Assembly (NCBI RefSeq): GCF_032714615.1
Contig: NZ_JAWDKA010000011.1
Location: 1-43,152, forward strand
DNA: 43,152 nt
DNA from: Methanorbis furvi
GTDB taxonomy: Archaea > Halobacteriota > Methanomicrobia > Methanomicrobiales > Methanocorpusculaceae
Direction: 5' to 3'
In this document: in pieces, positions 4,925 through 21,347 of the stretch
Layout: each line of letters begins with the position of its first letter
How positions within the stretch are numbered: position 1 is the stretch's first letter
The notes under the pieces: model-generated
Databases searched by the model: none
Told to the model about the DNA's origin: nothing
Seen by the model: the letters and a program-made list of their open reading frames with translations, nothing else
Program-made: the position numbers and the translations under genes

Positions 4925-6427
4925 ATGGCTGATTCACCTTCCGCCGCAGGCACCCAATCCGGTGCCCCGGCGAAAAAAATAAGCACCAACAAGAAGCTTG
5001 GCGTCATCTCCCTTGCAATGATCAACGTCGCGGCAGTTCTGAGTCTGAGGAACTTCCCGACCATGGCAATGGAAGGATGGAGCATGATCTTCTGGTATGT
5101 GTTGTTTACCGTATGTTTCCTGATTCCAACAGCTCTCGTTGCTGCTGAACTTGCCTCTACCTGGCCGAAAGCCGGTGGTATTTACGCCTGGGTAAAGGAG
5201 GCATACCCGGGAGATGGTAGTTTTATTACTATCTGGTGTTCCTGGGTGAACAATCTGGTATGGTTCCCAACGGTCGTGTCCTTCTTTGCGGCGACACTCG
5301 CGTACGCAATTCTCGCACCTTACCTTGGCGACAACCATCTCTACATGGCAATTGTGATGCTCGCCTGTTTCTGGGGAGTTACTCTGTTTAACTTCGTCAG
5401 CACAGCGAGAAGCTCAACCACGCTTTCAACGGTTGGTACCTTCTTTGGTTCGCTGATTCCTATCGGCATCATTGTGGTGCTGATGATCGTCTGGCTTGCA
5501 CTCGGCAATCCAAACGCTCTTGGTATGCCGACGGTAGAGAATATGCTGCCGTCGATGAATATGAGTACGGTGACCTTTGCGGCAAGTCTTGTTCTGATGT
5601 TTGCCGGTATGGAAATGGCCGGATATCATGCACGCGAAACTGAGAATCCGAAGCGTGATTATCCGATTGCAATGTTTATTGCAGCGGCAATCATCTGTAT
5701 CATGTCGATTCTTGGTACACTCGCTGTCGGTGTTGTTATTCCGATGACCGATGTGAGCCTGAATGCAGGTATTGTACAGACATTCCTCGCGATGTTCACT
5801 GCCTTCAATATTGAGTGGCTGATTGTCCCTGTCTCGATTATGATTGCGGTTGGTGTTATCGCTCAGCTGTCTACCTGGGTTGTCGGTCCTGCAAAAGGTC
5901 TTCAACCAGCGGCAATGACGGGTGACCTTCCGCCAATTTTCCGCAAGGTGAACAAGCATGGTATGCCAACCGGTGTACTGGTTGTCCAGGCAATTATTTC
6001 CTCAATCTTTGCGATCGCAATGATTGCAATCCCGTCCATTAATCAGGGATACTGGGTCTTAACTGCTATGACTTCACTGATTAACGGAGTGATGTACATG
6101 TTCCTGTTCGCAGCGTTCATTAAGCTGCGGAGGACAAAGCCTGATGTTGAGCGTCCGTACAAACTGCCGGGAGGAAAGTTCGGTATGTGGCTTGTTGGCG
6201 GTGTTGCTCTTGTGACACTGGTCTTTGCCTTCGTGGTCGGACTTCTGCCGGAGACAAACGGTGCGGCATTCGGTCTGAGTGATACGATCATGTATGTGGT
6301 CGGTATGCTGGTTGCGGTGCTGGCAATTATTCTTCTGCCGCCAATGATTCTGCGGAAGCTGAAAAAGCCTTCGTGGAAGCCGAGCGACGAGGAGTACAAG
6401 GCCTGGCTCGCAGAAGATGGGGAGTGA
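4925..6427 (+). CDS. APC-family amino acid antiporter, GadC-like
   Basis: A 500-residue membrane protein with about 12 hydrophobic helices of the amino acid-polyamine-organocation superfamily. It resembles the glutamate:GABA antiporter GadC more than the arginine:agmatine antiporter AdiC. GadC-like stretches include the ETENPKRDYPIA region near 237-248, INLSAG-type SLNAGIVQTF, STWVVGPAKG and the PGGKFG motif after helix 10. The start ATG follows AAGGAG at the end of the decarboxylase gene, so the pair is almost certainly co-transcribed and coupled. The likely job is exchange of external substrate amino acid for the internal decarboxylation product, probably arginine for agmatine given the partner. 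The C-terminal tail after the last helix is only about 25 residues, shorter than the plug that closes GadC at neutral pH. Exchange substrates are inferred from context. Confidence 0.85.
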   Translation: MADSPSAAGTQSGAPAKKISTNKKLGVISLAMINVAAVLSLRNFPTMAMEGWSMIFWYVLFTVCFLIPTALVAAELASTWPKAGGIYAWVKEAYPGDGSFITIWCSWVNNLVWFPTVVSFFAATLAYAILAPYLGDNHLYMAIVMLACFWGVTLFNFVSTARSSTTLSTVGTFFGSLIPIGIIVVLMIVWLALGNPNALGMPTVENMLPSMNMSTVTFAASLVLMFAGMEMAGYHARETENPKRDYPIAMFIAAAIICIMSILGTLAVGVVIPMTDVSLNAGIVQTFLAMFTAFNIEWLIVPVSIMIAVGVIAQLSTWVVGPAKGLQPAAMTGDLPPIFRKVNKHGMPTGVLVVQAIISSIFAIAMIAIPSINQGYWVLTAMTSLINGVMYMFLFAAFIKLRRTKPDVERPYKLPGGKFGMWLVGGVALVTLVFAFVVGLLPETNGAAFGLSDTIMYVVGMLVAVLAIILLPPMILRKLKKPSWKPSDEEYKAWLAEDGE

Positions 6428-6454
6428 TTGACTCCTCTTCCACCTCTTTTTTTT
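6421..6454 (+). terminator. Hairpin plus T-run after the antiporter gene
   Basis: GGAGT-GATTG-ACTCC forms a 5-bp stem with 5-base loop overlapping the stop codon, followed about 11 bases later by eight consecutive T at 6447-6454. In archaea the T-run alone can terminate. The position at the end of the two-gene operon supports the call. Confidence 0.5.
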
Positions 6455-6661
6455 CGTTTAGATCTGTTTGGAGTAATTTTTTCAATTGAATACGGTTTTG
6501 AGATTTTTTGAAACACGAAAATCACGAAATAGAAATTTAATTCGGATGTCTTTTAGAAGAGTAGTAATTATCGCCAACGGTGATGATCTTTTTTGCGATT
6601 CGGTAATTTTTTTCATACCTGAGTTCGGCTCTTGAAAAAAATTTTCCATCCCTCTCATTCT

Positions 6662-7369
6662 CTAAATCGAAGAGTCTTCCAAAGAAGGCAGATGCCTTGG
6701 AAAATCGGCTACAAATAGCGGATTATAAACCAGATACGGACGGACATCCCAGGGAATTGCCCGGCTGACGGGAGTCAGGGGAATGGGTTCTGCGACTGAT
6801 GCTCCGGATACTTCTGTCTGGCATTGAGTGATATAGGTCATACCATAGGGAATCAGGAGATGGGCGGTGGTCTTTTTCACACTGGCAATGAGGAGAAGGT
6901 TGAGTGAAGCATTCTGATTCTCAGGGGTTATGGTAACTCCGGTAATCGTTACCGACTCAGGCGGCATTGAGAGCGGAGGAGTATAACCACGCAGATCAGG
7001 CAGGGACTCTGAAATGAGATATGATTGTCTGAACGTTGCATCAAGATTTTTCACCGGCAGTGATGTTGATCGGAATGCCAACACAGTACCATTCTCGGTA
7101 GTCCTGACTTCAGATATCCAGCCGTCAAACTGCTGAGAGTATATGCTGGCCGGAAACATTGACTCGTTGCACATCTGCGGAAGCGGGACAATAATTTCTA
7201 CCGGTTCAGTGATATTGGCATCTTCAAGTCCGGTGATTGAAACCGTGTAGAGCTTTTCTCCATTGAAGTAACTGAGGACGGCATATGAACCAAAATACAT
7301 CCATGCCGGAGCGGTGAGGATGAGAATCACGATAAAAATAATGAGAAGGAGTCGTTTGGGATTCTTCAT
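6662..7369 (-). CDS. Membrane-anchored extracytoplasmic protein, paralogue of the 12395-13216 product
   Basis: A 235-residue protein with a positively charged N-terminus and one transmembrane helix or uncleaved signal (about residues 7-30); the rest should lie outside the membrane. It has several N-x-S/T sites and no recognisable enzymatic motif. It is a clear paralogue of the 273-residue protein at 12395-13216: both have a GLxxxxI segment, then a VPLPxM/LPLPLM motif, an S-x-YxxxxDGW segment and a K-N-(L/I)-x-A stretch in the same order. AGGAAG stands ahead of the ATG, as in the paralogue, but the TTGGCCA promoter element shared by the island at 11.8-16.2 kb is missing here. It ends close to the antiporter terminator and converges with that operon. 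Function unknown. Confidence 0.75.
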   Translation of the reverse strand: MKNPKRLLLIIFIVILILTAPAWMYFGSYAVLSYFNGEKLYTVSITGLEDANITEPVEIIVPLPQMCNESMFPASIYSQQFDGWISEVRTTENGTVLAFRSTSLPVKNLDATFRQSYLISESLPDLRGYTPPLSMPPESVTITGVTITPENQNASLNLLLIASVKKTTAHLLIPYGMTYITQCQTEVSGASVAEPIPLTPVSRAIPWDVRPYLVYNPLFVADFPRHLPSLEDSSI

Positions 7370-7567
7370 TCATACTTCCTCTTGCATCGGAAACAGATTT
7401 TATTTGTCAGACCGATTTTTCGTACTGCTACTTATGCACGGTAACGAAGATAAATGTATTGAGCATGGAATCATAATGCGAGAGAAAAACGAAACATCAT
7501 GCAAAGCAAAATACAAAAAATATTTTTCACATGATATTTTTCTACGGAAAAATATTTACAAAAAAAG

Positions 7568-8272
7568 TTAGAGCGGGAAGGTGACAACTTTGTCGCCGAC
7601 GACTGTCCCGGAAAAACATCCGTCAAGCAGCGCCTGACAGATGAGTGACGGGTCGCGGCCGTCGATGACGACGAGCGGGATGCCGGAGCGTTCGGTTATT
7701 TTTGCGGCAACCAGATCGATCACCATATTGCTGCCGGCACAAAGTTTCTCCTTCATGATCAGATCGATCAGTCCCTGCGGGCTGAGCGTATCGTACTTGG
7801 CGGCGCACGGATCCTTCTTCGGGTCGGCAGAGTAGATGCCGTCAATGGCGGTCATATTGATCATCATCGACGATCCGGTTTCCTCCGCAAGACATGCGGC
7901 GACCGCGTCAGTAGTCTGGCCCGGTGTAACGCCGCCCATGACAACAATCTTGCCGGTCAGGGCAAACTCCTTTGCTTCCATATACGACTCAGCAACTCTC
8001 GGATATGCGTACTCGCCGAGAGCCGAGATGAGAAGCCTTGCATTAATGCGGGTGATTAAAATGCCGAACTCGTCAGCAGATGCCTCGTCAAGTCCGATGT
8101 CACGACACACGCTGATATATCTGCGGGCTTCCCCTCCCCCGCCCACAACAGCAAATACCTGATGACCGGCTATTACAAGTTTTTTGAGTGCGTCTGCCCA
8201 CTCCATCAGCCGATGGGTGTCAAGTGTCGGTACCAGGACCGATCCTCCAACTGAGATTACAACCCGCGTCAT
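7568..8272 (-). CDS. pyrH: UMP kinase (uridylate kinase), archaeal type
   Basis: Phosphorylates UMP to UDP in pyrimidine nucleotide synthesis; cytoplasmic. The 234-residue amino acid kinase fold begins with VISVGGSVL, followed by the glycine-rich VVGGGGEARRY, the PGQTTDAVAA segment and the INMTAIDGIYSADPKK motif with the nucleotide-binding aspartates. The length fits the archaeal PyrH group. A TATA-like AAATATATAAGG lies within 25 bases of the ATG, so the leader is very short. It is a single gene, not linked to pyrG at 27-28.7 kb. Confidence 0.93.
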   Translation of the reverse strand: MTRVVISVGGSVLVPTLDTHRLMEWADALKKLVIAGHQVFAVVGGGGEARRYISVCRDIGLDEASADEFGILITRINARLLISALGEYAYPRVAESYMEAKEFALTGKIVVMGGVTPGQTTDAVAACLAEETGSSMMINMTAIDGIYSADPKKDPCAAKYDTLSPQGLIDLIMKEKLCAGSNMVIDLVAAKITERSGIPLVVIDGRDPSLICQALLDGCFSGTVVGDKVVTFPL

Positions 8273-10015: not shown

Positions 10016-10129
10016 TTATTCCTCCTCTCCTTTGGGGAAGGTGAGGCCCCAGATGATGAGGAGGATGAAGACGACAACTATTGTACCGCCAACGGCGATG
10101 ACGGTGATGTCAGGTAATCCAAGAATCAT
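10016..10129 (-). CDS. Small membrane accessory peptide of the SSS symporter
   Basis: A 37-residue peptide starting at ATG 10129. It consists almost entirely of one transmembrane helix (about residues 8-29) followed by the charged tail PKGEEE. The same frame is open further upstream, but that extension is polar, includes the repeat-derived start of the intergenic region and lacks a ribosome-binding site. A TATA-like TTATATGA lies about 25-30 bases ahead of the ATG used here. Short one-helix proteins directly upstream of SSS symporters are known from archaea and bacteria as presumed symporter accessory proteins. The 3-base gap to the symporter and the shared ribosome-binding purine run support translational coupling. 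Confidence 0.75.
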   Translation of the reverse strand: MILGLPDITVIAVGGTIVVVFILLIIWGLTFPKGEEE

Positions 10130-10200
10130 ACTATAAGAGTGACACGTGTTGTCATATAACATATTCGGTTTGTGGTGAGGTGGGACGTATGGGGTGCACG

Positions 10201-10316
10201 CAGCTCCGCCCACGATTCGCATGCCTTTGGCCTGCTCACTGCTTCGCAGGAAAACACAGAAAACACGGAGCTTTCACGGAAAAAATCACGGAGCAGACGT
10301 GAACAACACGGAAGTG
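10201..10316 (+). repeat. Dispersed repeat family A, copy 1
   Basis: Contains the family core CACGGAGCAGACGTGAAC followed by A/C-CACGGAA. Its left half carries CTCCGCCCACG and an embedded CATGCC...GCTTCGCAGGA block (10220-10251), also found in copy 4. Other copies are at 10586-10661, 32417-32494, 37325-37430 and 37510-37614. Confidence 0.8.
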
Positions 10317-10438
10317 AATTATTTTAGGATGTTTGTGATGTTTTGTGTTTGAAAATATTCACCAACGAAATAATTTTGTGAAAGTGTTGTTTGTGATGAG
10401 GTGAAGTTTTTTTAGTTTTTTTCTTACTACTACTACTA

Positions 10439-10464
10439 TGTACTGTACTTCAAAGTACAGTACA
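10439..10464. promoter_or_regulatory. Perfect 12-bp palindrome, operator-like
   Basis: TGTACTGTACTT, a 2-base spacer CA, then AAGTACAGTACA; the arms are exact complements. It follows a run of CTA/ACT triplets and is followed by AGTGTACTG, a partial third half-site. It could be a dimer-binding operator or a strong hairpin. No gene starts close by on the plus strand, and the surface-protein gene at 10704-11819 ends 240 bases away, so its target is unclear. Confidence 0.4.
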
Positions 10465-10585
10465 GTGTACTGAAAAGAGGAGTTTATTTTTTTAGAGGAG
10501 GGGGTGCCTATTAATTCTTGCCTCCTACGGAAATAAAAACATCACTGAGAGGCGTGAACAACACAGAACCCGAAAACAATTCATT

Positions 10586-10661
10586 TCCGTGCTGTTCACG
10601 TCTGCTCCGTGATGTTTTTCTGTGATATTTCCGTGTGTTCCGCTTTTCCGTGGGCGGAGCT
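10586..10661 (-). repeat. Dispersed repeat family A, copy 2 (inverted)
   Basis: Reverse-complement copy of the family A core (GTTCACGTCTGCTCCGTG read on the plus strand), ending in CCGTGGGCGGAGC. It lacks the CATGCC...GCTTCGC insert of copies 1 and 4. It forms a large inverted pair with copy 1. Confidence 0.8.
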
Positions 10662-10703
10662 ACGAAAACGAATTTATGGGCAAAGCCATGAGGAGAGGAA
10701 AAC

Positions 10704-11819
10704 TCAACGATGTTTTCTGCCTGCCAGCACTGCGACGACCCCAAGCCCTCCGAGGATTCCAAGAATCGGGACAGAGGATTTGGTCGGGATTGGAGTCGGG
10801 TCCTGCATGCTGCTGGTAAACTGTATGACGACGAATCTGAAGGGAATGGTTTTTTCAAATCCGTTTTGTTTTGCGGTCTGCTGAATGAAGTTCCAGAGAT
10901 TTATCAGATCTGATCTCTGTGCCGGATCTTCGATGGCGATTTCGATGTACTCGTGCGTGTCAACGCTGGTGAGCCAGCCGTATACACTGAAGGTGGTGTT
11001 CATGCTGCCGAAGAGTTCGGCGGCGGTGATGTCACGGACGATGACGCTGCCGTCTGGCGTGGTGTAAGGGAAGTCTTTGAGGGTGAGGGGAGTCTGGTTT
11101 TTCCGATGGGAGATTGCGTCGAACACGATGTCTGCGGCAGGTGATCCAAAGAAGGCTTCGGCGGTTTTTCTGTCAGGAGATACGGAGTCGATTTCGTCGC
11201 TCACGGAGATGACGCCCGACGCGGGAAGGGTGAGGGTCGCATTCGGGATATCAGAATATTTTTCTTCAGGCACGTAGGGATTGGCGATGAACTGAGTGTT
11301 GGCAAATATGGCGGGAATGGTTTTGGTAAATCCGTTCAGTTTTGCGGTCTCCTGAATGAAGTTCCAGGCGTTTTTCAGATCTGCTCGTGATGCAGGATCA
11401 CCGACTGAGATTTCGATGTACTCATGGGTCTCATAGGATCCACCCCAGCCATATCCGGTAAACGTGGTGTTCATTCTGCTGAACAGATCAGATACCGTAA
11501 TGTCTCGGACGATAACTCTGTCGTCCGCGGTATGATAGGAGAAATTTTTCAGAGTGAGGGAGAGGATTTCGTTTGGTACTGCCTCAGGAGTGTTTTTCTG
11601 AATCAGGGCGTTGAGGATGGCAGTGCCTTCTTCAGAACTCATGAAAGCCTCAGCAGTTTTTTTGTCAGGTGTGGTTGCGTCGATTTCGTCGCTTGCGAAG
11701 ATGAAGCCATATGCCGGAGGAGTGAACTGATCATTTTCTGCGGCAGAGTCGCTGAGGGCTGTGCAGGGTGAGATGAGAAGAAGGAGGATGAGAGGCAGGA
11801 GAAGATATTTTGTTATCAT
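10704..11819 (-). CDS. Surface-anchored protein with two tandem repeats of about 145 residues
   Basis: A 371-residue exported protein: signal peptide (about residues 1-22), two homologous domains (about 33-180 and 195-340), then a Thr/Pro linker and a C-terminal hydrophobic helix ending in RKHR, like an archaeosortase or membrane-anchor tail. Each domain holds SDEID, a DxKTAEAF segment, a VIVRDIT motif, (S/R)MNTTF, a THEYIEI motif, a W-N-F-I-Q helix and KTIP in the same order, which proves internal duplication. No known fold is recognised. The gene has its own promoter with the shared TTGGCCA element at 11903-11909 and a leader with a small hairpin before AAGGAAG. It is the last gene of the secreted-protein set of this island. 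Function unknown. Confidence 0.8.
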   Translation of the reverse strand: MITKYLLLPLILLLLISPCTALSDSAAENDQFTPPAYGFIFASDEIDATTPDKKTAEAFMSSEEGTAILNALIQKNTPEAVPNEILSLTLKNFSYHTADDRVIVRDITVSDLFSRMNTTFTGYGWGGSYETHEYIEISVGDPASRADLKNAWNFIQETAKLNGFTKTIPAIFANTQFIANPYVPEEKYSDIPNATLTLPASGVISVSDEIDSVSPDRKTAEAFFGSPAADIVFDAISHRKNQTPLTLKDFPYTTPDGSVIVRDITAAELFGSMNTTFSVYGWLTSVDTHEYIEIAIEDPAQRSDLINLWNFIQQTAKQNGFEKTIPFRFVVIQFTSSMQDPTPIPTKSSVPILGILGGLGVVAVLAGRKHR

Positions 11820-11834
11820 GATACTTCCTTAACC

Positions 11835-11858
11835 GAAGTGTTCGTGAGAGAACATTTC
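11835..11858 (-). promoter_or_regulatory. Leader hairpin ahead of the surface-protein gene
   Basis: GAAGTGTTC-GTGAGA-GAACATTTC can pair with one mismatch in the presumed 5' leader, just upstream of the AAGGAAG ribosome-binding site. A hairpin at the equivalent position (ATGTTT-GA-AAACAT, 13234-13247) precedes the paralogous unit at 12395-13216. Conservation of position, but not of sequence, suggests a structured leader. Confidence 0.4.
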
Positions 11859-11886
11859 GTTTGATGGCATGATAGTTTCACGTGAG

Positions 11887-11910
11887 CCATATATAATAAG
11901 TGTGGCCAAA
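11887..11910 (-). promoter_or_regulatory. Regulon promoter site 1: TTGGCCA element plus TATA box
   Basis: On the minus strand GAGAGTTTGGCCACAC is followed by TTATTATATATGG, with the TATA box about 13 bases after TTGGCCA. It lies 70-90 bases upstream of the surface-protein start at 11819. Sites 2 to 6 have the same layout. Confidence 0.7.
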
Positions 11911-11939
11911 CTCTCTTCTTGAAAAAATGATGAGTGAAT

Positions 11940-12323
11940 TTACGTTATCCAGCCGGTGTATGCATAGATGGTGCCGTTCAACTCCAGATATTTTCCTGAG
12001 TATGCGGCATGAATCCGGGATGCTTCAGGCTCGGGAACAAACGGTTGCGGATTTCGGAAGTCATTTTTGTTTTCGACCATGTATGCGGCAAGGGCCGGGT
12101 TTTCTCCGCGAAGCAGCATGTCAAGTGACGGATATGCGACGAAATCATCTTCAGTGAGATGGATTATTCTTGAATCGTTCGCAGGAATACTGTCTATTTT
12201 GGCGAACCGGATGTATCCGAATGTATCCGCAGGGGTCGTGCAGTAGACTGCAATAACTGCGGCTGCGAGAATTACCACTACGATGAGGGCCGCGATGAGA
12301 TGCTTTTTTTCTAATTTTTTCAT
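11940..12323 (-). CDS. Small membrane-anchored exported protein
   Basis: A 127-residue protein: lysine-rich start, transmembrane helix at about residues 8-28, then an extracytoplasmic part of about 100 residues. The C-terminal YLELNGTIYAYTG segment resembles the end of the lipoprotein encoded at 13329-13964 (YVSWNGTLYRVD), so the two may share a small C-terminal domain. ATG 12323 is preceded by GTGAT. The gene starts 71 bases after the end of the 273-residue protein gene and no TTGGCCA element lies between them, so it is probably transcribed from the promoter at 13282-13301. Function unknown. Confidence 0.7.
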   Translation of the reverse strand: MKKLEKKHLIAALIVVVILAAAVIAVYCTTPADTFGYIRFAKIDSIPANDSRIIHLTEDDFVAYPSLDMLLRGENPALAAYMVENKNDFRNPQPFVPEPEASRIHAAYSGKYLELNGTIYAYTGWIT

Positions 12324-12394
12324 AGTATATCACGTGTCGAATTTTTTTGGAGGTCTCTTGAATTTTCAGGGAGGAGAAAACATCGAAGATTTTT

Positions 12395-13216
12395 TCATGA
12401 TGCAGAGAAAGTATCCAGTCGGATAATAGACGGCAATGACTGCGGCAGCACAGGAATCCAGCCGGAAACATTTCCGGGAATCTGTTCGATGATTTCTGTG
12501 GAATAATGTCCAATCATATTGTTTGGCTGAGTGAAGAGATATCCGTATTTTGAACTGGTCTGATATTCTATCAGGATACTTATGTTCGCAGTCTCATCAG
12601 AGAGGGCTTCTGGAATATAAACAAGAGTCGGGCCGATATCTTCCCTGCCAACGTATGTTGGCCTACTGTCATAAGCAGGCAATGATGGATCCAGGGTGGC
12701 CACGACTACGCCGGGAGGAAATTTTTCGACCTTGGTATCAGATGGCGATGGGGTGGCGGGACTTTTCATATGCAGGGAGTACGGAGTTGCTGTATCATTC
12801 GTCTCCGGAGAAAATTTTAGTCCGGAGAGTCTGGTAACTGGGACTTCACCAACAAACATGCCGGATCTGCCATAGCTTGCATGGATATTTTTGAGCTGGG
12901 AGGTTGTTGCGGTGAGAGAAAGCAGAGGACCATACTCGGTACTGACGACGGAACTGTTCCAGCCGTCAAGTTCACGAGTATAGAACGAGTCCGGGAGTGC
13001 GGACTGATTATTCATCAACGGTAACGGCAGGAGAATTGTTACGGGAAGACTGCCGGTGCTGATGTTGGCCAGACCGTCCACGTTGATGTGATAGATAATG
13101 CTGGCGCTGTTGAGATTAAAGCAGAAACTAAACAGTGTCGGAAGTAAAAAGATGAGCAGGATAATCCCGCACAGCACGCAACAGAAGAGAATTTGTTTTT
13201 TGGTGAATTTTATCAT
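12395..13216 (-). CDS. Membrane-anchored extracytoplasmic protein, paralogue of the 6662-7369 product
   Basis: A 273-residue protein with a hydrophobic N-terminal helix (about residues 8-33) and an extracytoplasmic remainder rich in N-x-S/T. It shares the order GLxNI, ILLPLPLM, S-x-YTRELDGW and LKNIHA with the protein at 6662-7369. It has about 40 extra residues, including a Pro/Ser-rich stretch near 145-160. AAAGGAAAT precedes the ATG. Its promoter carries the TTGGCCA element (13295-13301) and its leader aligns with that of the surface-protein gene at 10704-11819, which shows that the whole promoter-leader unit was duplicated. No enzymatic motif is seen. Confidence 0.78.
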   Translation of the reverse strand: MIKFTKKQILFCCVLCGIILLIFLLPTLFSFCFNLNSASIIYHINVDGLANISTGSLPVTILLPLPLMNNQSALPDSFYTRELDGWNSSVVSTEYGPLLSLTATTSQLKNIHASYGRSGMFVGEVPVTRLSGLKFSPETNDTATPYSLHMKSPATPSPSDTKVEKFPPGVVVATLDPSLPAYDSRPTYVGREDIGPTLVYIPEALSDETANISILIEYQTSSKYGYLFTQPNNMIGHYSTEIIEQIPGNVSGWIPVLPQSLPSIIRLDTFSAS

Positions 13217-13233
13217 GATATTTCCTTTGCCAG

Positions 13234-13247
13234 AATGTTTGAAAACA
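13234..13247 (-). promoter_or_regulatory. Leader hairpin ahead of the 273-residue protein gene
   Basis: ATGTTT-GA-AAACAT is a perfect 6-bp stem in the presumed leader, directly upstream of the ribosome-binding site. It occupies the same position as the hairpin at 11835-11858. Confidence 0.35.
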
Positions 13248-13281
13248 TCAGGTTTGATGATCTGATAATTTTCTGTGAGGG

Positions 13282-13301
13282 ATTATAATAAATGTGGCCA
13301 A
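13282..13301 (-). promoter_or_regulatory. Regulon promoter site 2: TTGGCCA element plus TATA box
   Basis: On the minus strand GAGTGTTTGGCCACAT is followed by TTATTATAAT at the same spacing as in site 1. It precedes the start at 13216 by about 66 bases. Confidence 0.7.
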
Positions 13302-13328
13302 ACACTCGTTTTGAAAAATAAATTCTGG

Positions 13329-13964
13329 TTAAATTACAGATCTGTCAACACGGTAGAGTGTACCGTTCCAGGAGACATAGGCTTTGCGGGAGTTGCCGGC
13401 ATACCAGTAGGGGTCAAGCTGCCACTCTTCGGACGGGAGGACTTTGACGCTGTAGCCGGGAGTGTCGAGGAGGTATGCCCGAAGCACTGTGGATTTTTCC
13501 GCGTCTTCACGGGTAATGTTGATTACAGGCAAATTTGGGTCAGGATCAGACACCTGATCAAGGCTGAAGGAGATGTACTGATAATCATGGTTTAATGAAT
13601 GCTGGTATCCGGCAATGTCATAACGTTCCAGAAATTCAATGAAGCTCATGTTGAGAGTGAGGTTGCGGTATTTGCTGTATCCGTAAGGATAGGCATAGAC
13701 GAGATAGTCAAAGTAGGTGACGTTGTCTGTTTGGTTCATGAATTGTTTATAATCCATGTATTCTGGATCCTGTATTATTTCCAGAATTTCGATCTCAGTG
13801 AAATGGGCTGCCTGTGCCCCAGCTTCACGAACGGGATCGCGTTCAACTGCGGAGAGGTTGAATGCAGTTTCGTTTTCGGTGATGGTTTCGGCAGGCGGCA
13901 GGATGCAGCCGGCGGTGAACGCGGCGAGGACTGCGAGGAGGAGAAGCGGGAGCAGGAATTTCAT
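13329..13964 (-). CDS. Lipoprotein of unknown function
   Basis: A 211-residue lipoprotein starting at ATG 13964. The frame is open further upstream, but this ATG gives a perfect lipoprotein signal: MKF, a leucine-rich core and the lipobox L-x-A-G-C with Cys 20. The upstream extension crosses the TATA box of promoter site 3 and is therefore not coding. The mature part is acidic and tyrosine-rich (a YFDYLVYAYPYGYSKY stretch near 100-115) and ends in YVSWNGTLYRVD, resembling the end of the 127-residue protein at 11940-12323. Two promoter sites (3 and 4) stand in tandem upstream. It is the first gene of the leftward set and is divergent from the regulator genes. Confidence 0.8.
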   Translation of the reverse strand: MKFLLPLLLLAVLAAFTAGCILPPAETITENETAFNLSAVERDPVREAGAQAAHFTEIEILEIIQDPEYMDYKQFMNQTDNVTYFDYLVYAYPYGYSKYRNLTLNMSFIEFLERYDIAGYQHSLNHDYQYISFSLDQVSDPDPNLPVINITREDAEKSTVLRAYLLDTPGYSVKVLPSEEWQLDPYWYAGNSRKAYVSWNGTLYRVDRSVI

Positions 13965-14004
13965 TTGTGTATACCCTATGATTGGTTGAAAATTTGTTGC
14001 GGGA

Positions 14005-14025
14005 ATATATAATGAGTGTGGCCAA
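14005..14025 (-). promoter_or_regulatory. Regulon promoter site 3: TTGGCCA element plus TATA box
   Basis: On the minus strand GAGTGTTTGGCCACAC is followed by TCATTATATATTC. It is the proximal promoter of the lipoprotein gene at 13964, with a predicted leader of only about 15 bases. Confidence 0.7.
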
Positions 14026-14087
14026 ACACTCACTACACAATATTTTTGAAGAGTGGTAGATTCACAGGCGAACATATTCTCAGTGCT

Positions 14088-14115
14088 CCTATAAGAAAAG
14101 ATTGGCCAAGAACTC
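14088..14115 (-). promoter_or_regulatory. Regulon promoter site 4: TTGGCCAA element plus TATA box
   Basis: On the minus strand GAGTTCTTGGCCAATC is followed by TTTTCTTATAGG. From TTGGCCAA through the TATA box it is nearly identical to sites 5 and 6, but it points leftward as a distal promoter of the lipoprotein gene. Sites 4 and 5 are back to back, about 80 bases apart. Confidence 0.6.
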
Positions 14116-14173
14116 TCTTTTTGAATTTTTATGATCAGTGTAATTATTCATGAGTCACGATAAGATTGAAGAA

Positions 14174-14222
14174 TAGAGGTCTTGGCCAATCTTTTCATAT
14201 ACTATCATGAAAAAATATAGCC
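14174..14222 (+). promoter_or_regulatory. Regulon promoter site 5, 49-bp unit repeated at 15261-15309
   Basis: CTTGGCCAATCTTTTCATAT contains the 8-bp palindrome TTGGCCAA and a TATA box. The 49-bp unit recurs at 15261-15309 with one mismatch, each time upstream of a regulator gene. The ATGAAAAAATATAGCC within the unit lies closer to the TATA box than a normal start site, so it is probably promoter-proximal DNA and not a start codon. Confidence 0.7.
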
Positions 14223-14378
14223 TATTAGGTCTTGTATTGTTCCTGCATCAGCCCACACTGCCGCAGAACTAAACATGAACATTGAGGTGTTCGGACAAAA
14301 AGGATCATCGATGGCCAAAACATTTTCGATTGGATGGATAAAAACACAGCATGAAACCCGTATAATGAATGATTACGC

Positions 14379-15263
14379 ATGACAAAACAAGAGAGATACA
14401 CAGACATTGGCATCATCGTAATCTTACTCTTGATAGTTTTCGTTCCAACCACCATCCTCTTTTTTGCAGATGGTGGACAGATTCGTGGATTCAATGAAGA
14501 TCAAAATAATCCGGGAAATCCACTGAATACAGATATTGGAGGATATATTTTTGTACCAGTTGAAGAGGATATTGTCCCGATATATGACGATCATGAGATA
14601 GTTCAAATTGAACTCTGGCAGATGCCAGTTCGTGACGCACTCCTGATGATAGTCGTTTCTTCGTTCGCCTATATCCCTCCCTCTGTATCAAAAATCATCT
14701 CCTTCATCTATCTCACATCCGGCCTCGCCTTCATCATTCTTTACTACAAAATCTCCGGAAAAAAACGCAGCCCCGACTCACGCCGCGAAAAGATCTATCA
14801 GTACATCTGTGAGAATCCAGGCAAATCACAACAGCAGATTGCTGACGCAATGCAGATTTCACGCGGCAGTCTCAAATATCATCTCAACAGACTTCAGGAC
14901 AGTGACGAGATTCATCAAAAAATACATGGCGAGTATCCACGATACTTTCCAAGCCACAAAGGAATCTCTGACAAGGAAAAAGTTCTCCTCTCTCTCATAT
15001 CCGAAGAAAAAGATCATCTGTTCTATCAGACACTTCTCAATCATCCAGGCATCACCAGAAAAGAACTCGCAACAACTCTCGAAATCTCCGAGGCAACGGT
15101 GTCATGGCACCTGAGCAGACTTGATAATTACGAACTTTTCACCACAGAAAAATCCGGCAGAGAGCTGCATTACACGCTCACGCCGGAAACAGTTGCAGCA
15201 TATCACAAGATTGTGTTAGAGAAACTGCCGGATCAGGACGCAACGCAAAAAAATAAAGAGTAG
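14379..15263 (+). CDS. Membrane-tethered transcription regulator with two winged-helix domains
   Basis: A 294-residue one-component regulator. The N-terminal helix (about 9-29) is followed by an acidic extracytoplasmic segment (about 30-83) and a hydrophobic hairpin or helix pair (about 86-124). A basic KISGKKRSP junction then leads into two tandem cytoplasmic winged-helix domains (about 135-192 with SRGSLKYHLNRL, and 197-275 with ISEATVSWHLSRL). Both resemble ArsR/MarR-like archaeal HTH domains. A TGA three codons upstream fixes the start region; no strong ribosome-binding site is visible. Its own promoter carries the TTGGCCA element, which suggests autoregulation and control of the divergent exported-protein genes. 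The C-terminal half is about 90% identical to the next gene's product. The sensed signal is unknown. Confidence 0.82.
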   Translation: MTKQERYTDIGIIVILLLIVFVPTTILFFADGGQIRGFNEDQNNPGNPLNTDIGGYIFVPVEEDIVPIYDDHEIVQIELWQMPVRDALLMIVVSSFAYIPPSVSKIISFIYLTSGLAFIILYYKISGKKRSPDSRREKIYQYICENPGKSQQQIADAMQISRGSLKYHLNRLQDSDEIHQKIHGEYPRYFPSHKGISDKEKVLLSLISEEKDHLFYQTLLNHPGITRKELATTLEISEATVSWHLSRLDNYELFTTEKSGRELHYTLTPETVAAYHKIVLEKLPDQDATQKNKE

Positions 15264-15309
15264 AGATCTTGGCCAATCTTTTCATATACTATCATGAAAA
15301 AATATAGCC
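15261..15309 (+). promoter_or_regulatory. Regulon promoter site 6, second copy of the 49-bp promoter unit
   Basis: It begins at the stop codon of the first regulator gene and matches 14174-14222 at 48 of 49 positions, including TTGGCCAA and the TATA box. The second regulator therefore has its own promoter and does not depend on read-through. Confidence 0.7.
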
Positions 15310-15364
15310 GTGAGGCTTTGCAGGCAGTTTTGTTTTTTTGACATTCAGCCGGTATTCAGTAACG

Positions 15365-16246
15365 ATGAAAATGGATGAACGGGCATTAGATGCGGTCATA
15401 GTGATAATCCTCATTCTGGCTCTTTTCATTCCGGCAACAACACTTTTTTTCTTGGATGGAGGTGAGATAAAGGGATTTGAAACACCCAATAAATCATCAG
15501 AACTCAAGCTAAATCAACCGGTTACGATCGACGGACTGACAATAGAAATTATTTCAGAGAAAATAGAATCGATCGATGACGGAACAGAAATAATCCAGAT
15601 TGAATTCTGGCAATTGACGCCGCGTCAAATGATAATTCAGATAATCACATATCCAATGGCCTATATTCCGTTGTCGACAGGGAAACTATTATCTTACATT
15701 TATCTCGTGTCCGGCCTCGCCTTCGTCATTCTTTACTACAAAATCTCCGGGAAAAAACGCAGCCCTGACTCACGCCGCGAACAAATTTATCAGTATATTT
15801 GTAAAAATCCCGGCAAATCACTACAACAGATTGCTGACGCAATGCAGCTTTCACGCAGCAGTCTCAAATATCATCTGAACAGACTTCAGGACAGTGACGA
15901 GATTCACCAGAAAATGCATGGCGAGTATCCGCGTTACTTCCCAAGCCACAAAGGAATCTCTGACAAAGAAAAAGTTCTCCTCTCTCTCATATCCGAAGAA
16001 AAAGATCATCTGTTCTTTCAGGCACTCCTCAACAATTCCGGCATCACCAGAAAAAAACTTGCAGCAACTCTCGAAATTTCTGAAGCAACGGTGTCATGGC
16101 ACCTGAGCAGACTTGAAAATTACGAACTTTTCACCACAGAAAAAATCGGCAGAGAGTTGCATTACACGCTCACGCCGGAAACTGTTGCGGCATATCAAAA
16201 AATTATGTCGGAGGAGCTGACGGAACAGGATGCGGCGCAAACATGA
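15365..16246 (+). CDS. Membrane-tethered transcription regulator, twin of 14379-15263
   Basis: A 293-residue protein starting at ATG 15365; a TTG nine codons earlier is less likely. The design is the same as in the preceding gene: helix at about 9-29, extracytoplasmic segment, second hydrophobic region, then two winged-helix domains. From the last membrane helix onward the two proteins differ at only about 17 of 165 positions, and the DNA is similarly close. The extracytoplasmic segments share only DGGxIxGF and EIxQIExWQ at their edges and differ in between. The pattern fits duplication with a conserved DNA-binding half and a changing sensor, so both should bind the same operator. It is followed by a gene-free, repeat-rich kilobase. 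Confidence 0.82.
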   Translation: MKMDERALDAVIVIILILALFIPATTLFFLDGGEIKGFETPNKSSELKLNQPVTIDGLTIEIISEKIESIDDGTEIIQIEFWQLTPRQMIIQIITYPMAYIPLSTGKLLSYIYLVSGLAFVILYYKISGKKRSPDSRREQIYQYICKNPGKSLQQIADAMQLSRSSLKYHLNRLQDSDEIHQKMHGEYPRYFPSHKGISDKEKVLLSLISEEKDHLFFQALLNNSGITRKKLAATLEISEATVSWHLSRLENYELFTTEKIGRELHYTLTPETVAAYQKIMSEELTEQDAAQT

Positions 16247-16864: not shown

Positions 16865-16907
16865 TAATACAAAATATTCGTCGCCGCGTAACTCCTATCT
16901 AAAAATA

Positions 16908-17142
16908 TTTTCCTGAGAATTATTTTTCCTGAGAATTATTTTTCCTGAGAATTATTTTCCTGAGAATTATTTTTCCTGAGAATTATTTTTCCTGAGAATT
17001 ATTTTTTCTGAGAATTATTTTTCTGAGAATTATTTTTCTGAGAATTATTTTTCTGAGAATTATTTTTCTGAGAATTATTTTTCTGAGAATTATTTTTCTG
17101 AGAATTATTTTTCTGAGAATTATTTTTCTGAGAATTATTTTT
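16908..17142. repeat. Tandem array, 15 copies of a 15/16-bp unit
   Basis: CTGAGAATTA occurs 15 times in succession with T-rich linkers. The first half uses a 16-bp unit TTTTTCCTGAGAATTA with slight length changes; the second half is a strict 15-bp unit TTCTGAGAATTATTT. The two halves indicate two rounds of expansion. There are no spacers, so it is not CRISPR. It ends about 60 bases before the gene at 17204. Confidence 0.9.
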
Positions 17143-17203
17143 CACTCAGACCACCTGCCCGGCAAAAAAACCATCACCCATCCAGACCAACAGTATCTAC
17201 ATA

Positions 17204-17611
17204 ATGCCACTCTCCACACAAACCAAAGATCAGATCATCTCCCTCCTCGAAAATTATCAGACCGCCTACAACCACCACGACCCAAAAGCCCTCGCAGAAA
17301 CCCTCGCACAGGACATCATCATGTACGGCTGCCGGACTGAAGAGATAGTCGCAGGCAAAAACGCATTTCTTGCAATGATGGAGAAAAACTTCGCCAGATA
17401 CAAAACCGGCGGCATCCGTTTTGAAAATCCCGAAGTCAAAGGCGAAGGCGTCATCGCCTGGGTCTCTGCTGGCTGCATCCTTCAGAGCATCACCGGCAGC
17501 GGGGCAGTCCACGAAACACCCTCGCGGTTCACCGCAGTACTTCGGGGAACCGGCCATGCATGGGAGATCGTGCAGATTCACATGTCGATAGGATTCCCTT
17601 ACTGGGAATAA
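17204..17611 (+). CDS. SnoaL-like / NTF2-fold protein
   Basis: A 135-residue protein of the nuclear transport factor 2-like superfamily (SnoaL/DUF4440 type), a cone-shaped fold used for small-molecule binding or isomerase-type reactions. The N-terminal helix with YQTAYNHHDPKALAETLA, the following DIIMYG strand, the G-K-x-A-F helix and the closing RGTGHAWEIVQIHMS strand are typical. No cofactor motif or conserved catalytic pair can be identified with certainty. The start lacks a clear ribosome-binding site and may be leaderless. Its promoter region abuts the tandem array. The gene stands 76 bases before the MNT nucleotidyltransferase gene. Confidence 0.75.
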   Translation: MPLSTQTKDQIISLLENYQTAYNHHDPKALAETLAQDIIMYGCRTEEIVAGKNAFLAMMEKNFARYKTGGIRFENPEVKGEGVIAWVSAGCILQSITGSGAVHETPSRFTAVLRGTGHAWEIVQIHMSIGFPYWE

Positions 17612-18217: not shown

Positions 18218-19522
18218 CTACCAGCTGACCTCCATCACCGCTTTTTCCTCCTCCTTCAACGAAGTATCATTCTCCTTTGCCGCAAACGCATACTTCTCCA
18301 TAGGATTATACGAATCATACAAAGCGCACTTATCCAGCACATCCACAAACTCCCGCAGATACAAACGCGGCACCACATCAACCCGTCCGCCGAACCGTCC
18401 CGTCACCCGTTCGATCATCGCACGAATAAACCTGATCGAAACACGGCTCTTATCAACCTCAGAGTACGCCTCGGAATAGATCTCAATAACCCGCGTCGAA
18501 ACCTCCTCAAGCTTCTTCACATCAAACTTCGGCAGAACAATCTGCGTCTGCATCGGATTTGAGTACCCGTCATCTGCAATCATACCGATACGATCATACA
18601 ACGGCGGAAGAGATCTGATCCCTTTCGCACTATCAAACAAAGCCGGAGTTCCCGCAAACAGGAAAAAACAGTTCGGCAGCTCATTCCGGTCGATCATATC
18701 AACAATCTGCCGGAGATTAATGTAGCCCTTCTCCCGCTGCGGACGGGCAAACGCCTGAGCAGTCTCCACCTCATCAAACGTCACGAGGAGCCCGGAGTAT
18801 CCTGCCTGCACAATAACATGCACCAGCCCATTCAGAAACGCCAGAGCATCACCCTCCGTAACCGTTCCCTTCAGACCAGCCTGCGACTTAAACGTGCGGC
18901 CAACAGTCTGCTCTCCCGCAATCCAGCCGACCGCAGACTGAGCCGTTGCAAAATCTCCCGTATTGTTCGCCTGATAATACGTCCGAAGAGCAGCCGCAAG
19001 ACCGGAATTAATTCCGCTCACCCGCAGAAGCACCGACTCAATCTCTTTTGCCGTCTGAGCCGCAAGAGCAGGATCATCCTCGCGAATGCCCGTGCTAATA
19101 AGCCGGTCCTCGATTCCGTAAATCCAGGTATCGATGATACTCTTCAGCGCATGATCCTCGGTCTGCGTTGTGAGACCTGAACAGATCTTCGCATACACTG
19201 CCTGCAGTTTGTGAAGAGGCGTGTCAGGAGAAATCACCACATGACTCGTCACAAACTTTGACGCAAGACCAATCTCCTGCGCCCGCGAGATCAAAAATGT
19301 CTTGCCTGACCCGTACTCGCCGCGGACAAACTTACAGTCAGCATGACCCGTCCCGACAAACGCCAGCTGCGAAGAGATAACCTTCTCCTCGGTCGAAAGC
19401 CCGACCGCGAGCCTGCCAAGACCAGACTCAGGCACTGTTCCGCGACGGAGAGCATTAATAATTCCAACACTTTCGAGCCTGTGTTCATCACGCCCGAACC
19501 CGTTACTCTCCGGTATAGCCAT
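18218..19522 (-). CDS. BrxD-like P-loop ATPase (DUF2791 family)
   Basis: A 434-residue ATPase starting at ATG 19522, chosen because GGGGAG stands 6 bases ahead; the start lies inside the end of the TPR gene (20-base overlap), so translation is coupled. Walker A is GEYGSGKT at 68-75 and Walker B LLVTFDE at 245-251; a sensor-like strand FFLFAGTPALF follows at 286-296. The segment DTPLHKLQAVY after the second strand is typical of DUF2791, the family that includes BrxD of BREX phage-defence systems. No other BREX gene (pglZ, brxC, methylase, helicase) is near, so this is not a BREX locus. Its constant partner here is the TPR-winged-helix protein. Role unknown: defence, stress response or regulation. 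Confidence 0.75.
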   Translation of the reverse strand: MAIPESNGFGRDEHRLESVGIINALRRGTVPESGLGRLAVGLSTEEKVISSQLAFVGTGHADCKFVRGEYGSGKTFLISRAQEIGLASKFVTSHVVISPDTPLHKLQAVYAKICSGLTTQTEDHALKSIIDTWIYGIEDRLISTGIREDDPALAAQTAKEIESVLLRVSGINSGLAAALRTYYQANNTGDFATAQSAVGWIAGEQTVGRTFKSQAGLKGTVTEGDALAFLNGLVHVIVQAGYSGLLVTFDEVETAQAFARPQREKGYINLRQIVDMIDRNELPNCFFLFAGTPALFDSAKGIRSLPPLYDRIGMIADDGYSNPMQTQIVLPKFDVKKLEEVSTRVIEIYSEAYSEVDKSRVSIRFIRAMIERVTGRFGGRVDVVPRLYLREFVDVLDKCALYDSYNPMEKYAFAAKENDTSLKEEEKAVMEVSW

Positions 19523-21347
19523 AAATCTCCCCGCGGTCACCGACGCCGCGTTTCTCAAGAATCTTCACACCCTTCTCTGACGCCTTCGTCAAAATTCCGT
19601 TCACAATACCGGTAACCCGTCGCGTCCCAAGCACTGAGCGGAGGTCCATCTCGGTCGCCTCGCGGTGCTCACGCAGGAATGCAATCACCTGTTGTTCACG
19701 CTCGTCAAGATCCAGAAGATTTGCCGCAGGTTCAGGTTCGGAAACATCAGCCGCATCAACAAGCCAGGAGTTCTTCTCCAAAAGAGCAGGCCGCTCGGCA
19801 AGCGCCCGGCCTTTCGCCTGAGAGAGCAGCTGCATAAAATCCTCGACCTTAATCACCGCAGGATAACAGGGCATCACATCAAGACCCAGGAGGCAGTGCC
19901 ACTTGCACTCCTCGTAGTCCTGCCGCTCAAGAGCGTCGCCTGCTGCATAAAGAAGACCGACCGCCAGCATCTCGCGACCGTTCGAGGAAAGTTTCTCCAG
20001 AACCGAAGTCAGGCGGGTAAGTACCTGCTCCATGACTTTGGGGATCCGGTACATCGCCTCTTTGCCGTTCAGAACTTCACCTGCGACCAGTTCCACATCA
20101 GACGCACGGGTAACGTTCGTCAGAATGTAACGGATGACCGTCTCGCACTCGCGGTCCTCACCGAGACGTTTGAGAAAACCTGCGTAGGAAATACCGCCGT
20201 GAATATAATCCGCACGATACGCCCGGTAGTACCAGTCGCGGGCCTGCGTGCAGGCACGGGCATCCTCATACGCTGCGCCAATCTGCGTCAAGCAGACGGC
20301 GGTCGGGTATGAGGAGAGAAGCACGCTGATAATTCCTGCGACCTCTTCTTTGGTCCGCACCGCATCAAGGAACACCTTGAACCGGTTGATGACCAGCTCC
20401 TGCATCGCAGGATCCGCAACCTCGGAATCTTTTCCGCACTGTTCTGCAATCAGCTGCCGGTAAATCGTGTTCGCTTCATCAGCGTGATTGGTTCGTGCGG
20501 CAAGTTCTGCTTCAAGCAGCCGGTAGACAGGATCTGATCTGCTCTTGACCAGAATGCCCAGTTCATAGCGTGCTGCATCATAATGCCCGAGCAGTTTTTC
20601 AAGCAGCACAAATGAGAATCGAATCTGGGCAACGTCGTCGTCCTCCAGTTGTTCCTCTTCAAAGCTGTCAAGAGCAGACCGATAGGCACTCTCCGCAGCT
20701 TCGGGGTCAAGGGCCGACAATGCTTCAAGATCAAGACGGAGGTAGACGACTTCACGCACGGTGTTCCAGCCGCGAAGGGCAACACTCATCGCTTTCTGAT
20801 ACTCTTTTGCGGCAAGCAGCGCCTCGACATACTCAGGCGAAAACTCGTCTTCGCCAAAGTTCTGCACATGAAGGGCCGCCGCTTCTTCAGGCTCGCCGAC
20901 TTCGGTGAGGGTTTTCATCAGCAGTCTGATGTCGGCAGGATCAGAGCCGAACCGGACCAGAGAGCGGAGCGACGGAATGGCACCGCGAAGATCGTTTCTT
21001 GCAAGAAGCAGGCGGGCATAGCTTCGGAGAGCCGGACGATTCTCAGGGTCAAGGATCAGTGCGGTCGCATACTCGGAGACCGCATGTTCATCACCGGTTT
21101 TTTCCATGACGTCAGCGAGATAGCTGTGCAGGTAGGAGGAGGCCGGCATTCCCTGTATGAGGTCGCGGAGCAGATACCCTGCGGTGTCGTACTGGCCGGT
21201 TTCCGTGTAACTGCGTGCGGCAAGAAGCAGAAGAGCGGGGTCGCTCGTGCCGGAGACCAGGGTGATGACGTCGGCAAATTTTCCGGCGTTGAAGAGTTTC
21301 ATCGCATCGTCGAGTGCGGGTGTCGGGCTGGAGGGGTCAGGGGTCAT
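19503..21347 (-). CDS. TPR protein with C-terminal winged-helix-like domain
   Basis: A 614-residue soluble protein. Residues about 10-520 are helical repeats of tetratricopeptide type (for example AxxxRSYTETGQYDTAGYLL, an ILDPENRPAL boundary and further YxxALxxP-like units). The last 70 residues (about 545-614) look like a winged helix: LDEREQQVIAFLREH, then a helix pair with GTRRVTGIVNGIL and a wing ending in YGYTGE. It starts 6 bases after the DJ-1/PfpI gene stop and overlaps the ATPase gene by 20 bases. The TPR part probably binds a partner, most simply the ATPase encoded next, and the winged helix may bind nucleic acid. No ribosome-binding site is evident before the ATG, which fits reinitiation from the upstream gene. 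Confidence 0.72.
   Translation of the reverse strand: MTPDPSSPTPALDDAMKLFNAGKFADVITLVSGTSDPALLLLAARSYTETGQYDTAGYLLRDLIQGMPASSYLHSYLADVMEKTGDEHAVSEYATALILDPENRPALRSYARLLLARNDLRGAIPSLRSLVRFGSDPADIRLLMKTLTEVGEPEEAAALHVQNFGEDEFSPEYVEALLAAKEYQKAMSVALRGWNTVREVVYLRLDLEALSALDPEAAESAYRSALDSFEEEQLEDDDVAQIRFSFVLLEKLLGHYDAARYELGILVKSRSDPVYRLLEAELAARTNHADEANTIYRQLIAEQCGKDSEVADPAMQELVINRFKVFLDAVRTKEEVAGIISVLLSSYPTAVCLTQIGAAYEDARACTQARDWYYRAYRADYIHGGISYAGFLKRLGEDRECETVIRYILTNVTRASDVELVAGEVLNGKEAMYRIPKVMEQVLTRLTSVLEKLSSNGREMLAVGLLYAAGDALERQDYEECKWHCLLGLDVMPCYPAVIKVEDFMQLLSQAKGRALAERPALLEKNSWLVDAADVSEPEPAANLLDLDEREQQVIAFLREHREATEMDLRSVLGTRRVTGIVNGILTKASEKGVKILEKRGVGDRGEIYGYTGE

Follow-up and report, generated by a model that had tools for sequence, protein, structure and literature searches.

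Two tandem membrane-bound regulators of Methanorbis furvi as probable mosaics of distinct old sensors and a common DNA-binding half

The window, by which we mean the whole analysed stretch of 43,152 nucleotides, is contig C11 of the 1.85-Mb genome of Methanorbis furvi (G000), whose relatives bear the name Methanocorpusculum (among them M. petauri and Ca. M. faecipullorum). Two regulator genes, A and B, follow each other in it on the same strand:

14379-15263, forward strand: regulator A, an open reading frame with the Pfam families HTH_24 and HTH_HVO_0163_N above the cut-off and an AlphaFold2 model
15365-16246, forward strand: regulator B, with the architecture of A and its start at ATG 15365, fixed by the orthologue L032:6945-7826

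The start of B was moved from TTG 15338 to ATG 15365 because its orthologue in the sister species (G008) starts at the matching ATG, with MKMDERALDAV as its first residues, immediately behind the stop codon of the gene before it. In the AlphaFold2 model of A (mean pLDDT 70.8) a first membrane helix, TM1 (aa 3-30), is followed by an extracytoplasmic sensor (about 31-83, pLDDT under 50), a short helix (84-97), a second membrane helix, TM2 (101-126), and two winged helices (135-191 and 198-282, pLDDT about 82-93). Pfam recognizes only helix-turn-helix families in A and B, among them the HVO_0163 N-terminal HTH (PF24266), which with 52.0 bits for A and 48.9 bits for B against a gathering cut-off of 31 is a match at the domain level only. 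A fold search against the PDB returned mainly winged helices of the ArsR/SmtB type and no match for the sensor of A and B. With a predicted membrane helix and a DNA-binding domain in one chain, both proteins belong to the architectural class of transmembrane transcription regulators (TTRs), which are reported to be enriched in Methanomicrobia (PMC10269533); this survey counts architecture only, and we are aware of no operator, mosaic structure or partner that it describes for the present group. No relatives outside the genus were found at E 1e-35 in 207 genomes of the order, and a phage origin was rejected, as phage records gave no match.

The original prediction had counted about 17 differences in 165 positions between the last membrane helix and the C-terminus of the two proteins. 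The near-identity is confirmed with a slightly higher count, as we find 22 differences in 168-171 aligned residues and, counted from A residue 110, 24 in 182. The extracytoplasmic segments are diverged as had been claimed, and computing the synonymous divergence along both genes revealed a step that excludes uniform divergence: up to A residue 109 the proteins are 40% identical with a dS of 2.57, which is near saturation, whereas from the middle of the last membrane helix onwards they are 87% identical with a dS of 0.32. A max-chi2 scan located the break at A codon 113 when all nucleotides were used (156) and at A codon 110 with synonymous codons (33), and in both cases none of 2000 permutations gave a value as large. 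Two control pairs of orthologues, G022/G007 and C4_78/G008_C3a, showed no synonymous break in the same scan. The resulting segments are:

14706-14717, forward strand: recombination breakpoint in A (codons 110-113, inside TM2) from the max-chi2 scan, with its equivalent in B at about 15698
14702-15249, forward strand: homogenised DNA-binding half of A, 89% identical to B 15693-16241 (BLAST)
15693-16241, forward strand: homogenised DNA-binding half of B, 89% identical to A 14702-15249 (BLAST)

One could assume that purifying selection alone has kept the DNA-binding halves of two old paralogues alike, and with a dN/dS of about 0.2 between A and B the shared half is indeed constrained. Selection on the protein does not, however, hold synonymous sites at the low divergence seen here, and the DNA-binding halves of the true sensor orthologues of A are just 51% identical to that of A. 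We regard this explanation as extremely improbable and in fact ruled out, since only one of the two halves has low synonymous divergence.

The two halves also have different histories. In the N-half tree A groups with single regulators from three other genomes of the Methanocorpusculum group (G022, G007 and G024a; support 99/97), far from B, and a single clade of A, B and the G008 protein is rejected (p-AU 0.00026). In contrast, the C-half tree unites A, B and G008 (92/99; with the long branch G012 removed, 95/98), and joining A with its sensor kin is rejected here (p-AU 0.02). As the trees of the halves conflict, one of A and B has to be a chimera, and together with the synonymous sites this supports recombination, one of the two causes suggested earlier, and not selection on the protein alone, as what made the halves alike. 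The sister position of B and G008 in the C-half tree (97/91) dates the event to before G000 and G008 separated, and A has since been lost from G008 or was never kept there. Conversion from A to B and from B to A would both be possible, and the moved part would be the DNA-binding half or, equivalently, sensor cassettes would have been swapped onto one DNA-binding half. We also considered whether the DNA-binding half of G008 is itself a mosaic of A and B but make no such claim, as simple divergence along the tree (A,(B,G008)) would likewise give its 20 A-like and 37 B-like sites.

A scenario in which one gene was recently duplicated in tandem and one of the sensors then diverged rapidly under adaptation would agree with the tandem order and with the duplicated promoter described below. 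It does not agree with sensor-half synonymous sites near saturation next to a half with so much lower dS, nor with a sensor half of A that groups with regulators of other genomes and one of B that is 98% identical to that of the sister species; the synonymous step and the N-half tree thus rule it out, and we give it hardly any probability. The sensors are conserved and not fast evolving, because B and its G008 counterpart are 98% identical here and the sensors of G022 and G007 differ by a dN of 0.03 against a dS of 0.24. The idea that the sensors diversified after a duplication therefore had to be abandoned: the sensor halves are old types under purifying selection.

A block of 54 bp containing the promoter is duplicated with 96% identity in front of A and B, and similar candidate operators lie upstream of neighbouring genes on the other strand:

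14169-14222, forward strand: promoter/operator repeat before A, 96% identical to 15256-15309
15256-15309, forward strand: promoter/operator repeat before B, overlapping the last codons of A
14176-14201, forward strand: R-type operator candidate for A, GAGGTCTTGGCCAATCTTTTCATATA
15263-15288, forward strand: R-type operator candidate for B, GAGATCTTGGCCAATCTTTTCATATA
14090-14115, reverse strand: R-type operator candidate, in relatives before a gene for a large exported protein that is absent from the window
14008-14031, reverse strand: T-type operator candidate GAGTGTTTGGCCACACTCATTATA before the lipoprotein gene 13329-13964
13284-13307, reverse strand: T-type operator candidate before gene 12395-13216
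11892-11915, reverse strand: T-type operator candidate before gene 10704-11819

The core TTGGCCAA occurs five times in 1.85 Mb, three of them at 14102-15276, and TTGGCCA is found at 76 places in the genome with about 8 of them between 11.9 and 15.3 kb, where 0.14 are expected. Alignment of 25 sites from five genomes on this core separated a T type, AAAACGAGTGTTTGGCCACACTTATTATATA, present before genes for exported proteins, from an R type, GAATTCTTGGCCAATCTTTTCTTATA, present before the regulator and its divergent neighbour. In all 25 sites the element stands directly before the TATA box at constant spacing. Allowing up to 3 mismatches in a search of 25 genomes from the genus, we found the T and R patterns only in the 5 genomes that have this type of regulator and in none of the other 20, and reversed-pattern controls gave zero; the chance of such a 5/5 and 0/20 distribution is 1 in 53,130, and all matches with 0-2 mismatches are at the regulator locus. 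In G007, where the DNA-binding half of the A-type regulator is 51% identical to that of A, the T-type sites are mostly TTTGTCCA and not TTTGGCCA.

The TTGGCCA element is likely the operator of A and B. Their recognition helices are nearly identical, with one difference at the starting residue of the first (Gly in A, Ser in B). A common operator specificity is predicted from the shared element and the recognition helices, and because of both a shared regulon is likely. As the element is tied to the locus and not to each protein, another factor could bind TTGGCCA, or it could be a lineage-specific promoter signal while A and B control something else. Binding of A and B to the element is a prediction, and the position of the element against the TATA box in all sites would suit such an alternative. 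On the other hand, the element is confined to genomes with this regulator type and essentially to the regulator locus instead of occurring in promoters in general, and a paralogous array on contig C4 has a different element, TATCACACTTTGGTCAGAC, in the same position, so that we consider a different role of TTGGCCA unlikely. In this C4 triplet (L037, G000:C4, about 5480-7780) TATCACACTTTGGTCAGAC or a close variant precedes the TATA box upstream of all three regulators, and before the first regulator it also occurs in inverted orientation. At G000:C4:75249-75272, close to the single-copy paralogue C4:78619, lies a T-like site, GAGAGTTTGTCCATATTTATTATA, which suggests a related but shifted operator for this paralogue.

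The predicted targets in the window, most of them without a Pfam family, are:

13329-13964, reverse strand: predicted target, exported lipoprotein (lipobox TAGC) with L032 orthologues that have the same operator
12395-13216, reverse strand: predicted target with a T-type site upstream; exported or anchored in the membrane, matches no Pfam family
10704-11819, reverse strand: predicted target with a T-type site upstream; exported, has a signal peptide, matches no Pfam family

The reading frame 11940-12323 may be on the transcript of 12395-13216. In G024 (L035, G024:C4) eight T-type operators are found within 5.5 kb (10122-15608) before near-identical repeated lipoprotein-like genes, by which the predicted regulon would be amplified in tandem. 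At L032 4898-6262 and L034 6341-7672 divergently oriented genes encode large exported proteins with weak matches to Reprolysin-type (M12) metallopeptidases; they share the R-type operator, and the window has kept the operator at 14090-14115 while the gene is missing.

Eight single-copy relatives carry an intact open reading frame of 149-158 aa between operator and regulator, overlapping or abutting the regulator start. We call its exported product, a putative partner of the regulator, PPC-like because it resembles a distant copy with a sub-threshold match to PF04151; for two of the partners no Pfam family was found. In the window only remnants are present:

14208-14378, forward strand: decayed PPC-like partner gene within the A leader; the intact reading frame of the relatives ends at the regulator start
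15295-15364, forward strand: PPC-like relic in the B leader, more decayed and recognised solely from its position and first codons

The partner is absent or a relic in 9/9 tandem copies including A and B and broken in 2/10 others, and although the copies are not independent this is suggestive of an association between partner loss and tandem copies. In G024 a C-terminal fragment is left. The G008 partner before the B orthologue (L032, C9, about 6467-6943) is open except for one in-frame TAG, which is CAG in the relatives, and is likely a pseudogene.

Looking for further paralogues as had been proposed, we obtained 13 matches to A in the genome (A included), some of them in other tandem arrays. 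With A/B, C4 t2/t3 and the neighbours G003a/b of Ca. M. faecipullorum (G003), three arrays show the sensor-sparing pattern. Between C4 t2 and t3 37% of the bases differ in codons 35-102 and 7% elsewhere, and between G003a and G003b 43% differ in codons 50-99 and 6% elsewhere. In both pairs the sensor is a diverged island: the promoter and first helix before it and the DNA-binding half behind it are homogenised. For G003 the C-half pair has a support of 100/100, the N-half pair is rejected (p=0.017) and the sensor of G003b groups with G024c (99/95); the N-half conflict is weaker for C4 t2/t3 (p=0.076), for which a recent duplication with a sensor swap would fit equally well. The tandem pairs G024a/b and C4 t1/t2 do not have homogenised DNA-binding halves, thus tandem order alone does not yield the pattern.

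The islands bear on a sub-case of the mosaic reading, in which the whole gene was duplicated and a foreign sensor recombined into one copy while the DNA-binding half was not converted; this would alter the history and not the shared regulon. Besides the islands of C4 t2/t3 and G003a/b, flanked on both sides by homogenised DNA, the sensors of C4 t1 and t2 speak for it, which have a 96% identical stretch in common while the remainder is diverged. Against it, the divergence of A and B extends to the start codon and the leader, with the promoter and the DNA-binding half alone matching, and the leader of A holds its own relic of the partner gene. We therefore regard such a cassette swap as a possible, though the less probable, course of events at A/B.

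We observed mosaic structure and tree conflict at A and B, recurrence in two other arrays and a conserved element with a matching phyletic distribution. With good confidence we propose that A and B are mosaics which have their own ancient sensors, received the same winged-helix half and promoter element by recombination and feed two sensors into one regulon. Recombination between A and B would have been gene conversion or a mirror-image sensor swap. Both proteins, located in the membrane, would then bind the TTGGCCA element via their shared winged helices, perhaps also as mixed A/B dimers, using R-type sites in their own promoters and T-type sites in front of at least three genes for exported proteins whose transcription leads away from the regulators. 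Each sensor would alter binding on its own outside cue, and since element and DNA-binding half are shared both signals, presumably distinct, would converge on the same genes and on the regulators' own promoters, so that two signals probably act on one small set of exported proteins, located at the surface or secreted. The site just upstream of TATA/BRE would fit activation through recruitment of basal factors, and repression might also be possible. More generally, the regulators of the genus might be interchangeable parts, with recombination matching operator and DNA-binding half and mixing old sensors, and with partner loss accompanying the arrays; we rate this at slightly below even chances. 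If true, one regulon gains several input channels without rewiring of promoters.

Parts of this picture are known already from near-identical HTH paralogues (ArnR/ArnR1) and domain-limited conversion (mtrA-1/mtrA-2). In Methanomicrobiales and Methanococcales gene conversion acts on a single domain of mtrA-1 and mtrA-2 and leaves their membrane domains different (PMC4632066). A and B, tandem paralogues from the same order of methanogens, likewise combine low synonymous divergence in one domain with conflicting domain trees; mtrA, however, is an enzyme subunit and its distinct part came from fusion with mtrF/G, whereas A and B are regulators and theirs derives from old sensor alleles. ArnR and ArnR1 of Sulfolobus acidocaldarius are membrane-bound one-component paralogues with an almost identical HTH domain, which both act on the flaB promoter via inverted-repeat boxes and target surface structures (PMC6396743). 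The HTH of ArnR is N-terminal, its two membrane helices are C-terminal, and it has a putative HAMP region (PMC6396743). Like A and B they are paired archaeal membrane-bound regulators with nearly the same DNA-binding domain, but in A and B the membrane part comes first and the two winged helices are C-terminal, which places them outside the ArnR/ArnR1 family. We know of no report of gene conversion between ArnR and ArnR1. The relatives with a PPC-like gene resemble the co-component systems ToxR/ToxS and VtrA/VtrC, in which a membrane regulator and an exported partner are encoded alongside each other (PMC9214523). In contrast to these systems, A and B are adjoined by relics only and not by an intact partner gene. 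To our knowledge the PPC-like partner is unrelated to ToxS and VtrC. In a limited search of open papers we met with no description of one-component regulators in which recombination repeatedly spared the sensor.

A and B would illustrate a route by which an existing regulon gains an extra signal without new operators, the DNA-binding half being kept by recombination while the sensor is changed. For a little-known class of archaeal membrane regulators the analysis supplies a predicted operator together with a predicted regulon, made up of exported proteins, and a partner gene that has been lost, and shared binding and signal integration by A and B become testable.

Two other features of the window lie downstream of B. 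A tandem array of TTTTTCTGAGAATTAT-like units (about 16904-17145) is located directly upstream of a SnoaL-like gene (17204-17611), and at 18218-21347 a gene for a BrxC/BrxD-type ATPase (PF10923, E 8e-125) overlaps the gene for a repeat-like protein of 614 aa, a gene pair that is conserved in G008.
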